NCBI RefSeq assembly: GCF_018138085.1
Contig: NZ_CP073105.1
Span: 868,001 to 932,000, forward strand
Reading direction: 5' to 3'
Length of the DNA: 64,000 bases
From: Stutzerimonas stutzeri
GTDB taxonomy: Bacteria; Pseudomonadota; Gammaproteobacteria; Pseudomonadales; Pseudomonadaceae
Part shown: positions 22,853 through 25,954 of the stretch, one piece after another
Layout of the letters: each line of letters begins with the position of its first letter
Position numbering within the stretch: the first letter of the stretch is position 1
Program-made: the position numbers and the translations under genes
The notes under the pieces: generated by a model
The model's database searches: none
What the model was told of the DNA's origin: nothing
Seen by the model: the letters and a program-made list of their open reading frames with translations, nothing else

Positions 22853-22866
22853 TTGACTCTGGTCAA
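22853..22866 (+). promoter_or_regulatory. Anr/Dnr box of nrdD
   Basis: TTGACTCTGGTCAA, a symmetric TTGAC-N4-GTCAA site 86 bases upstream of nrdD. Confidence 0.82.
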
Positions 22867-22951
22867 TTCGCTTTGGGCGGGCATCCTCTAAATTTCACAT
22901 CATCTTGTGGTTTCGTTTTATTGTTTATCTACATATGGTGGTGGAGACGTG

Positions 22952-24958
22952 ATGCCTGGGCTCGTGGATGTGGATCAACCCGTGTCGCTGCGAAAGCGCG
23001 ACGGTCGACTGGTGGCCTTCGAGGCGAGCAAGATCGGTGCGGCGATCGAGGCGGCAGCCCGGGCGACCGGTGAATTCGAAGCAACCGAGGCGAACGAACT
23101 CGCCGCCCGGGTGCTGGCGCGCTTGTCGCAACGGGTGGTGGCGGTAGAGCAGGCCCAGGACGCCGTCGAGCGCGTGCTGATGGAGGCGGGGCATTACGAC
23201 ACGGCACGCGCCTACATCGTCTACCGCGAACGCCATGCGCGCCTGCGCCGTGATCGCAAGGCGGTGATCGACGTCGCTGCTTCGATGAACGAGTACCTGT
23301 CGCGGGAAGATTGGCGGGTGCGCGCCAACGCCAATCAGGGCTACTCGCTCGGTGGCTTGATCCTCAACGTGGCCGGCAAGGTCACCGCCAACTACTGGCT
23401 GGACGAGGTCTACAGCCCGGCCATCGGCACCGCGCACCGCGAGGGCGATCTGCATATCCATGACCTGGACATGCTCGCCGGCTACTGCGCAGGCTGGTCG
23501 CTGCGCTCGCTGCTAAACGAGGGCTTCAATGGCATCCCCGGGCGCGTCGAGGCGGGCCCGCCCAAGCACCTGTCCAGCGCCCTGGGGCAGATGGTCAACT
23601 TCCTCGGCACGCTGCAGAACGAATGGGCCGGCGCCCAGGCGTTCAGCAGTTTCGATACCTACCTCGCACCCTTCGTGCGCAAGGACGGGCTCGGCTATGA
23701 CGAGGTCCGCCAGGCGATCCAGGAGTTCATCTACAACCTCAACGTGCCGTCGCGCTGGGGCACGCAGACGCCCTTCACCAACCTGACCTTCGACTGGGTC
23801 TGCCCGGAGGACCTGCGCGAGCAGATCCCTTATATCGGCGGCGTCGAGATGCCCTTCGCCTATGGCGAGCTGCAGGCCGAGATGGAGATGATCAACCGCG
23901 CCTACATCGAGGTGATGCAGGCCGGCGACGGGTTGGGGCGGGTGTTCACCTTTCCGATCCCGACCTACAACATCACCCATGATTTTCCCTGGGACAGCGA
24001 GAACGCCGAGCGGCTGTTCGAGATGACCGCGCGCTACGGCTTGCCGTACTTCCAGAACTTCCTCAACTCGGACATGCAGCCCAACCAGGTGCGCTCGATG
24101 TGCTGCCGCCTGCAGCTCGACGTGCGCGAGTTGCTCAAGCGCGGCGGCGGGCTGTTCGGTTCGGCCGAGCAGACCGGCTCGCTCGGGGTGGTGACGATCA
24201 ACTGTGCCCGCCTGGGTTATCTGCATGCCGGTGACTGGGCCGGGCTGGTCGAGCATCTCGATGCACTGCTGGACATGGCCAAGGAGAGCCTGGAGGTCAA
24301 GCGCAAGGTCATCCAGCATCACATGGACGCCGGCCTCTATCCCTACACCAAGCGCTATCTCGGCACCCTGCGCAATCATTTCTCCACCATTGGCGTGAAC
24401 GGCCTGCACGAGATGGTGCGCAACTTCACCGAGGACGCCGAAGGGCTGCACACCGAGGCCGGGCGACGCCTGGCGGTCCAGCTGCTGGATCACGTGCGGG
24501 CGCAGCTGGTGCGCTTCCAGGAGCAGACCGGGCACCTCTACAACCTTGAGGCGACGCCGGCCGAAGGCACTACCTATCGCTTCGCCAAGGAAGACCGCAA
24601 GCGCTTCCCGGACATCCTCCAGGCGGGTTCCGCCGAGGCGCCGTACTACACGAACTCCTCGCAGTTGCCGGTGGGTTTCACCGACGACCCCTTCGAGGCG
24701 CTGGTGCTGCAGGACGAACTGCAGACCAAGTACACCGGCGGCACCGTGCTGCACCTGTATATGGCCGAACAGATTTCCTCGGCGCAGGCCTGCAAGCATC
24801 TGGTGCGCACCGCGCTGGGCCGTTTCCGCCTGCCTTACCTGACCATCACCCCGACGTTCTCGATCTGCCCGACCCATGGCTATCTCGCCGGCGAGCACGA
24901 GTTCTGCCCCAAATGCGACGAGGCGCTGCTGGCCAGGCAGCAAAATTGCTGCGCCTGA
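22952..24958 (+). CDS. nrdD: NrdD, class III ribonucleotide reductase body lacking the glycyl-radical end
   Basis: Anaerobic ribonucleoside-triphosphate reductase, which supplies dNTPs without O2. The 668-residue protein starts MPGLVDVDQPVSLRKRDG. It has an ATP-cone at about 8-95, then the ten-stranded catalytic barrel with RSMCCRLQLD near 388. Near the C-terminus is the structural zinc site CPTHGYLAGEHEFCPKC. It ends 14 residues after that, ...RQQNCCA. The glycyl-radical loop (RVxGY) that normally follows is missing from this polypeptide. It is found in the next ORF (25092-25256). Start set at 22952 behind GGAGACGTG. Confidence 0.93.
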   Translation: MPGLVDVDQPVSLRKRDGRLVAFEASKIGAAIEAAARATGEFEATEANELAARVLARLSQRVVAVEQAQDAVERVLMEAGHYDTARAYIVYRERHARLRRDRKAVIDVAASMNEYLSREDWRVRANANQGYSLGGLILNVAGKVTANYWLDEVYSPAIGTAHREGDLHIHDLDMLAGYCAGWSLRSLLNEGFNGIPGRVEAGPPKHLSSALGQMVNFLGTLQNEWAGAQAFSSFDTYLAPFVRKDGLGYDEVRQAIQEFIYNLNVPSRWGTQTPFTNLTFDWVCPEDLREQIPYIGGVEMPFAYGELQAEMEMINRAYIEVMQAGDGLGRVFTFPIPTYNITHDFPWDSENAERLFEMTARYGLPYFQNFLNSDMQPNQVRSMCCRLQLDVRELLKRGGGLFGSAEQTGSLGVVTINCARLGYLHAGDWAGLVEHLDALLDMAKESLEVKRKVIQHHMDAGLYPYTKRYLGTLRNHFSTIGVNGLHEMVRNFTEDAEGLHTEAGRRLAVQLLDHVRAQLVRFQEQTGHLYNLEATPAEGTTYRFAKEDRKRFPDILQAGSAEAPYYTNSSQLPVGFTDDPFEALVLQDELQTKYTGGTVLHLYMAEQISSAQACKHLVRTALGRFRLPYLTITPTFSICPTHGYLAGEHEFCPKCDEALLARQQNCCA

Positions 24959-24995
24959 GCCGGGTCGCGAATGACACACCGAACCGACCTGTAGG

Positions 24996-25024
24996 CGCGA
25001 GGGGGACGCCGAGTCCCTCTCGCG
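24996..25024 (+). other. Hairpin between nrdD body and its glycyl-radical gene
   Basis: CGCGAGGGGGAC, a GCCGA loop and GTCCCTCTCGCG form a 12-bp stem with one mismatch in the 133-base gap. No U-run follows. It could separate transcript levels or guard mRNA ends. Confidence 0.6.
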
Positions 25025-25091
25025 AGGGCGGCGACACCGCTTTTGCGAGCGGGACTTCCACGATTATTCATTCACCACGAAGGAGCGACAC

Positions 25092-25256
25092 ATGACCCAC
25101 GCCACTCAACTGCCCGAAGCCCAACGCCAGCGCTGCGAAGTCTGGACCCGCGTGATGGGCTATCACCGCCCGGTCGCGGCGTTCAACCCGGGCAAGCAGT
25201 CCGAACACCGCGAGCGCACCCATTTCACCGAGCAGGCGGCCGGGCTGGCGCGCTAG
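25092..25256 (+). CDS. Stand-alone NrdD glycyl-radical domain protein
   Basis: A 54-residue protein starting MTHATQLPEAQRQRCEVWT. Residues 20-24 read RVMGY, the glycyl-radical motif of class III ribonucleotide reductases, followed by HRPVAAFNPGKQSEHRERTHF, typical of the very C-terminus of NrdD. The candidate radical glycine is Gly23. Its own ribosome site, GAAGGAGCGACAC, and start lie 133 bases after nrdD. Its frame differs from nrdD and is closed by TGA at 24972, so a single frameshift or readthrough cannot join them. It is two bases from nrdG. Inference: it docks on the NrdD body in trans and receives the radical from NrdG. Confidence 0.88.
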   Translation: MTHATQLPEAQRQRCEVWTRVMGYHRPVAAFNPGKQSEHRERTHFTEQAAGLAR

Positions 25257-25258
25257 CC

Positions 25259-25954
25259 ATGGGCGCTGCGCTGCGGGTCGGGGGCCTGGTGCCCCTGACC
25301 ACCCTCGACTTTCCCGATCATCTGGCTTGCGTCCTGTTCTGCCAGGGCTGCGGCTGGCGCTGTCGCTACTGCCACAATCCCGAGCTGATTCCGGCCTGTG
25401 GCACGCAGGAGCGCAGCTGGGACGACATCCTCGACTTTCTCGACCAGCGCGTCGGACTGCTCGAGGCGGTGGTCTTCAGCGGCGGCGAACCAACCCTGCA
25501 ACTGGCGCTGTCGGCAGCGATCGCCCAGGTGCGCGCCAGGGGCTTCAAAGTCGGGCTGCACAGCGCCGGTATCAAGCCGAAGCTGTTTCGTCAGGTGTTG
25601 CCGCTGGTGGACTGGGTGGGGTTCGACGTCAAGGCGTTGCCCGAACACGGCCGGCTGATCACCGGGGTCGAAGGCAGTGGCGAGGCCAACTGGAAAAGCC
25701 TCGAGGCGCTCATCGGTAGCGGCGTGGACTATGAGTGCCGCACCACCGTGCATTGGCAGCTGTTCGATGCCGAACGTCTGTGGGATATGGCCCAGCGCCT
25801 GCGCAAGCTGGGTGTCGAGCGGTTCGCCGTGCAATGCGTGCGCACCGCGAAGATGCTCGACGAGTCCCTCGCGGAAAGCCGCGCGCCCTATGACCAGCAG
25901 AAGCTGTGGGAGCGGATGGGGCGGCTGTTTCCCTCGTTTGTTTTGCGCGGTTGA
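25259..25954 (+). CDS. nrdG: NrdG, anaerobic RNR-activating radical SAM enzyme
   Basis: Radical SAM activase that generates the glycyl radical on the anaerobic ribonucleotide reductase. The 231-residue protein has C31-GWR-C35-RY-C38 as the 4Fe-4S motif and VVFSGGEPTLQ as the SAM-binding GGE motif near residue 77. It starts MGAALRVGGLVPLTTLDFP, two bases after the glycyl-radical ORF, so the three genes form one operon. The longer upstream open frame lacks family similarity. Confidence 0.93.
   Translation: MGAALRVGGLVPLTTLDFPDHLACVLFCQGCGWRCRYCHNPELIPACGTQERSWDDILDFLDQRVGLLEAVVFSGGEPTLQLALSAAIAQVRARGFKVGLHSAGIKPKLFRQVLPLVDWVGFDVKALPEHGRLITGVEGSGEANWKSLEALIGSGVDYECRTTVHWQLFDAERLWDMAQRLRKLGVERFAVQCVRTAKMLDESLAESRAPYDQQKLWERMGRLFPSFVLRG

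Follow-up and report, generated by a model that had tools for sequence, protein, structure and literature searches.

According to passages of four papers, the activase NrdG of class III ribonucleotide reductases (RNRs) generates a radical at a glycine in a loop that reaches into the catalytic barrel of NrdD and meets the finger loop there, oxygen cuts glycyl radical enzymes at this glycine, and the small protein YfiD can replace the piece cut from pyruvate formate-lyase (PFL) (PMC4493059, PMC11226230, PMC3019208, PMC8683613). One NrdD subgroup, NrdDh4, is described with an MCCR motif and a phenylalanine at the tip of the finger loop (PMC4493059). In the passages available, reviews and structural papers describe NrdD as a protein that includes its glycyl-radical domain, and Andorfer et al. 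(PMC8683613) give only YfiD and Y06I as validated, with spare parts for other glycyl radical enzymes called a tempting speculation. Here we describe a class III RNR locus in a stretch of 64,000 nucleotides (nt) from Stutzerimonas stutzeri (contig NZ_CP073105.1, positions 868,001 to 932,000; hereafter the window), in which the radical loop is found on a separate protein of 54 amino acids (aa). The first-pass annotation, made from the letters of the window, did not know this as a described form of NrdD, and in passages of open-licence PubMed Central papers we likewise found no account of an NrdD radical domain on a protein of its own, the subscription literature being outside that search. The locus consists of the following elements.

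22952..24958, plus strand: nrdD catalytic body, 668 aa, with ATP-cone, barrel, finger loop and zinc ribbon, and without the glycyl-radical loop
24866..24916, plus strand: zinc-ribbon motif CPTHGYLAGEHEFCPKC, residues 639-655, beyond which the body has no conserved element
24959..25091, plus strand: gap between nrdD and the small open reading frame (ORF), 133 nt, with overlapping inverted repeats at 24996-25056 and a stop in the small-ORF frame at 24972
25080..25085, plus strand: Shine-Dalgarno sequence AAGGAG of the small ORF, six bases before its ATG
25092..25256, plus strand: stand-alone glycyl-radical domain, 54 aa, RVMGY in CEVWTRVMGYHRPV, presumed radical Gly23 (25158-25160)
25259..25954, plus strand: nrdG radical S-adenosylmethionine activase, 231 aa, TIGR02495 (NrdG2) 211 bits with a cut-off of 131, two bases after the small-ORF stop

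The nrdD body runs from an ATG at 22952 to a TGA at 24956-24958 (an alternative GTG at 22907 would give 683 aa), and it scored 455 bits with TIGR02487 (cut-off 326), 1129 with NF006126 (548) and 582 with PF13597 (26.2). Pfam placed the ATP-cone at residues 14-96, and the finger-loop region holds SMCCR at residues 382-386 and LFGS at 401-404. The PF13597 match covers model positions 2-528 of 562 and lacks the final 34, RVxGY is absent from all 668 residues, and the chain ends 13 residues past the last cysteine of the zinc site. C639, H642, C652 and C655 were invariant across an alignment of 49 proteins, and the ribbon motif presumably binds zinc, as judged from relatives. The RVxGY sequence is found on the 54-aa protein, which matched PF13597 positions 531-562 above cut-off (E 1.5e-8); small and fused proteins had one common core, CEVWTRVMGYHRPV. 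Body and small ORF are in different reading frames, with TGA at 24972 in the frame of the small ORF. The first-pass annotation had read from the sequence a body ending after its zinc site without RVxGY, a separate RVMGY ORF with its own strong ribosome site that encodes the normal NrdD C-terminus, the TGA, and nrdG two bases downstream, and each of these readings held. The body and the small ORF were the only PF13597 matches in the genome; a second full-length nrdD, which the annotation had said would overturn its reading, was looked for with the same model and none was found. A repeated element was considered as the origin of the gap and rejected, the 23-base palindrome piece being found once only (within the window).

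The split form is common far beyond the genus, in which the first-pass annotation had thought that it might be common. We took 80 named genome loci as the best 80 of 552 confirmed stretches, ranked by likeness to the small protein, and 77 of them were split. The 3 fused loci belonged to metagenome-assembled genomes (MAGs), two of Maricaulis and one of Micrococcales, while the split loci included Stutzerimonas, Pseudomonas (among them P. nitroreducens and P. jinjuensis), Halopseudomonas, Billgrantia, Halomonas, Marinobacter, Chromatiaceae, Oxalobacter and Thiobacillus, as well as single MAGs labelled Geobacteraceae and Omnitrophota, for which contamination is possible. Among the 77 split loci the frame relation of the two genes was 0, 1 or 2 in 25, 33 and 19 cases, gaps ranged from -26 to 258 nt (locus L067 left out), and the body stop was TGA, TAA or TAG in 59, 13 and 5 cases (L067 entered with a wrong stop). 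The small gene is separately started and conserved: it begins with ATG in 77 of 77, by a start choice that favours ATG, and AAGGAG was matched at 5 or more of its 6 bases in 72. All 44 genus or family loci were also split, with gaps of 29 to 410 nt, and four plasmid records showed the same form in Cupriavidus, Bradyrhizobium and Paracoccus. In a phylum-wide sample, 57 of 398 genomes matched PF13597, and 12 of these 57 had body and domain as separate places, most others having one stretch; in the class sample, 30 of 323 genomes matched the split domain, at least 3 of them weakly and inside long frames. A protein search (lengths of about 30-94 residues) gave 1597 relatives of the small protein, and several among the best 120 listed are already named 'anaerobic ribonucleoside-triphosphate reductase' or 'oxidoreductase' in public records, with nothing further stated. 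Two other genomes, G601 and G665, have the NrdD radical domain in-frame about 160 nt past the end of the body match, with a total of about 755 aa, which corresponds to an insertion near the split point.

The radical domain was present in 33 of 58 relatives including the window's own genome (one being a weak match within a 649-aa frame), and in 112 of 298 family genomes. A search with PF13597 gave the same 112 genomes, and the remaining 186 had neither body nor domain, the lists for body and domain in the 112 being compared by eye. Among these genomes, body and domain share one open frame in G316, and the case of G133 is fragmentary, at contig ends. One genome of the window's genus, G032, carries a second, different full-length NrdD (G032:C2:133633-135291, 332 bits) on another contig than its split enzyme. 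Selection was analyzed with 44 sequences, the window and 43 genus or family loci, in which codon positions 1, 2 and 3 of the small gene varied in 5, 3 and 31 of 36 codons. From 735 pairs of 40 distinct sequences, with pairs at a synonymous distance (dS) of 0 or above 1.5 dropped, the median nonsynonymous distance (dN) was 0.024 and the median dS 0.64, a ratio of about 0.04. This ratio indicates strong purifying selection on the small gene.

In one family, f49, the two genes are not adjacent. In G616, about 9 kb of contig C4 separate nrdD from the radical domain, which stands directly before nrdG. Seven ORFs of at least 150 aa, all on the opposite strand, lie between nrdD and this pair, with HemN-type, FNR-type and nitronate-monooxygenase-type ORFs recognized by Pfam and the rest judged by eye; a co-translational join is impossible there. 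In G698, a draft and the sole other f49 genome examined, body and domain are on different contigs, the domain is beside nrdG, and no NrdD body was found within 2.4 kb before it. With body and domain encoded apart in G616 and G698, the domain would have to work in trans in both. In the comparison with GrcA, a stand-alone radical domain, the small protein thus has a separate gene that is non-adjacent in two genomes of one family, from which we infer trans action. A radical domain working in trans, as proposed by the first-pass annotation, is the best explanation and is supported by sequence comparison, through the spread across Proteobacteria with varying frames and gaps, the non-adjacent genes in one family, and the co-occurrence of body and domain.

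We consider it very probable that the window encodes a working class III RNR of two catalytic polypeptides plus an activase, an NrdDh4-like enzyme with a detachable glycyl-radical subunit activated by NrdG. The 668-aa body would contribute the ATP-cone, the allosteric and substrate sites, the finger-loop cysteines and the zinc ribbon, and the 54-aa protein would supply the glycyl radical. Docking of the small protein would be at the site that the C-terminal domain occupies in an ordinary NrdD and that is empty in the body; NrdG would install the radical on Gly23, most probably after this docking, and the radical would then pass to a finger-loop cysteine of the body to give the active enzyme. 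Glycyl radical enzymes are cleaved by oxygen at this very residue, and a split NrdD would therefore have its vulnerable part on a cheap, exchangeable subunit. We also count in favor of this two-polypeptide enzyme that Cupriavidus necator H16, the subject of a passage in PMC2864759, is split. Several points weigh against it. Fused relatives are common in the same group, so that the split is unnecessary for the chemistry. The two genes are adjacent in all 121 split loci (77 named and 44 genus or family), with gaps of at most 410 nt, which would suit coupled translation or co-assembly equally. The 80 named loci are biased toward split forms, because they were chosen as the best matches to the small protein, and it is speculative that the split exists to allow a part damaged by oxygen to be exchanged.

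The small protein could instead be a GrcA/YfiD-type repair part that serves a full-length NrdD without being obligatory as a subunit, by the same idea as YfiD for oxygen-cut PFL in the passage of PMC8683613. This is very improbable for the window, where the genome holds no full-length NrdD to be repaired, and in the family, where one of the 112 NrdD-bearing genomes is fused at this locus and one other, G032, has its second, different full-length NrdD; for the phage copies described below it is a possible reading. The small protein matched PF13597 and, below threshold, a domain of unknown function, and it did not reach PF01228, the model of GrcA and YfiD. No PF01228 glycyl-radical protein (PFL, GrcA) was found in the genome, and cross-talk with PFL or GrcA was ruled out on that ground.

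Two PF02867 proteins are encoded in the genome, one a B12-type NrdJ (TIGR02504, 590 bits) and one NrdA-sized. The first-pass annotation had called the small protein the only radical source; this stands for class III, with no second NrdD and no PF01228 protein. Because of the NrdA-sized protein and NrdJ, class III need not be the sole anaerobic route to deoxyribonucleoside triphosphates here, and the same two proteins would let the cell live on other RNRs if nrdD were a truncated, inactive gene followed by a leftover fragment. Such a decaying pair is nevertheless hardly credible given the dN/dS of about 0.04 with variation almost confined to third positions, the agreement of body and fragment in presence and absence across 298 genomes, the split form in C. 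necator H16 (the organism of the PMC2864759 passage), and an FNR-type box upstream of nrdD, which lies as follows.

22853..22866, plus strand: FNR/Anr/Dnr-type box TTGACTCTGGTCAA, upstream of nrdD and toward the divergent FNR-like regulator ORF, pattern TTGAY-N4-RTCAA
22039-22884, minus strand: FNR-like regulator ORF, identified by eye from its translation, true start probably further in

The pattern TTGAY-N4-RTCAA had seven perfect matches in the window (7255, 7398, 10232, 15029, 18967, 22006 and 22853) versus 0.07 expected, and with these seven FNR/Anr-type boxes the window looks like an anaerobic regulon.

A frameshift, bypass, read-through or intein-like ligation that yields an ordinary full-length NrdD from both ORFs would agree with their adjacency and order in the window and with the existence of fused homologues, but it is most unlikely given a frame relation, gap length and stop codon that all vary among the 77 split loci, a small ORF with its own ribosome site, a body in which Pfam found NRDD, the ATP-cone and a sub-threshold zinc-ribbon match only, and genes that are non-adjacent in G616 and G698, which excludes it as a translation event in G616.

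The fused relatives show where the two-polypeptide NrdD is cut. SMCCR was present in 119 of 120 listed fused proteins of the same group, which were named from Maricaulis, Halorhodospira, Teredinibacter, Sanguibacter, a Sumerlaeota MAG, a Nanoarchaeota MAG and others. In the fused proteins the linker from the last zinc cysteine to the glycine has 16-55 residues (median 25), and the tail of split bodies has 8-39 (median 15, 76 loci); the cut point is the linker between zinc ribbon and radical loop. A tree was made of 79 bodies (28 split, 51 fused), from 197 rows thinned at 86% identity with two loci lacking a readable body left out. Fused rows were collected by similarity to one Maricaulis protein, an uneven sample, and both trees were quick ones with many weak forks. 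On the tree the split or fused label needs 13 changes, of which well-supported branches alone force one; a single split clade was rejected by the approximately unbiased test (p 0.00046); and the fused G316 was nested among split Pseudomonas, where the smallest group around it with support of 95 has four rows. From these three results it is probable that the split form arose, or was passed on by transfer, more than once and that re-joining occurred at least once.

Copies of the radical domain were also found in viral contigs. A scan with the small protein confirmed 127 stretches, of which we took the best 80 (L202-L281). RVxGYHRP was kept in 80 of 80, and by a first pattern 67 were stand-alone, 6 unclear and 7 unread. 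Neither an NrdD body nor NrdG was found in the flanks of the 80 loci (up to about 4 kb per side, often less), and a class I or II RNR was next to none of the 80 in the flanks available. Each of the 43 records searched whole with PF13597, which may be fragments, gave exactly one match, the radical domain alone, above cut-off in 42. Neighbors were checked at 13 of the 80 loci; L202, L222, L224 and L273 gave nothing telling, and nine had phage replication or virion genes, as listed below.

L204: terminase
L206: tail fibre and virion protein
L232: terminase and portal
L256: tail
L268: major tail protein
L203 and L277: DNA polymerase
L205: replication initiation
L211: helicase

The small protein of the window and the two phage copies tried matched phrog_4132, 'unknown function'. 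Among isolate phages no orphan domain was found: at E<=0.01 there was one record, ANMV-1, at a feature annotated NrdD, and at E<=1 a phage domain query gave eight weak matches, seven at class III RNR features and one in an unannotated record. In a bacterial genome, G922, a split nrdD-radical domain-nrdG locus (L287) coexists with an orphan copy (L286), which is beside RecT and an RNR-barrel ORF matching phage families, with five other neighbors without phage function. Of 76 viral ORFs whose start could be read, ten (L208, L209, L210, L212, L215, L223, L225, L227, L228 and L232) carry an N-terminal extension with four cysteines, resembling the addition of a small metal site ahead of the radical domain; a search with one such protein gave mostly metagenome proteins, nameless or hypothetical. 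Cys15 of the small protein (25134-25136), eight residues before the radical glycine, is conserved in more than 90% of the listed small and fused proteins, and its position is Val, Ala or Thr in four viral copies.

We lean slightly toward a wider reading, in which the domain is a mobile, exchangeable radical subunit, repeatedly cut loose by bacteria, re-joined at least once, and carried alone by phages to charge the anaerobic RNR of the host as a class III counterpart of T4 Y06I, with oxygen damage met by replacing a part of roughly 6 kDa and not the entire enzyme. The phage copies suggest an auxiliary gene, so far unnamed (phrog_4132).

The split form may also bear on an older assignment. The passage of PMC2864759 cites Siedow et al. 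in connection with C. necator H16 and lists CH34 NrdDG as Rmet_5137 and Rmet_5139, with one number skipped. In H16 the locus is on pHG1 (L282, 2771-5847) and is split into a body of 676 aa with a computed mass of 76.19 kDa (H16_RS32680) and a separate 66-aa protein that carries the RVMGY glycine (H16_RS32675). Gly650 of the body falls within the zinc ribbon, as the G of CPTHGYL. For NrdG the computed mass is 27.1 or 25.4 kDa, depending on the start. A 1999 abstract of Siedow et al. reportedly gave NrdD as 76.2 kDa and took a dead G650A mutant as evidence for a radical on G650. It is also said to give NrdG as 30.9 kDa, which fits neither computed start, so these reported values are uncertain. 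If the abstract does place the radical on G650, the published assignment may name the wrong residue, and it is worth re-reading.

If a large group of class III RNRs works with this domain in trans, loading, loss and replacement of the radical could all take place apart from the catalyst, and separately made parts would allow studies of activation by NrdG, of docking and of allosteric control.

Among known systems, NrdDh4 shares with the window a body with SMCCR, LFGSAEQTGS and a zinc ribbon and an adjoining NrdG; placed by motif alone, the window body would belong with this subgroup, the phenylalanine presumably being the tip residue. The difference is that the window has its radical loop on a separate 54-aa protein, and sections 11 and 13 and the available passages of PMC4493059 mention no split. 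Neisseria bacilliformis was considered as a possibly described split NrdD and set aside, the same paper putting it in NrdDh and a passage suggesting NrdDh3, not NrdDh4. Aeromonas phage phiAS4 has a fragmented nrdD, but this is one phage, and the cause of fragmentation is given as unknown in the passage (PMC3653736). The split class II NrdJa/NrdJb of P. aeruginosa resembles the window in that an RNR catalytic chain comes from two genes (PMC4520616, in part), but it is B12-dependent and NrdJb has other domains (PMC9669993, in part). A further parallel is with the PFL spare parts YfiD/GrcA (E. coli) and Y06I (phage T4), and the split NrdD would be a natural test case for spare parts of other glycyl radical enzymes. 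Like them, the window protein would be a small stand-alone glycyl-radical domain acting in trans, of which a phage version exists (PMC8683613, in the passage available); unlike them, it is the end of PF13597 with no PF01228 match, and it would be the only radical domain of its enzyme, not a repair part.

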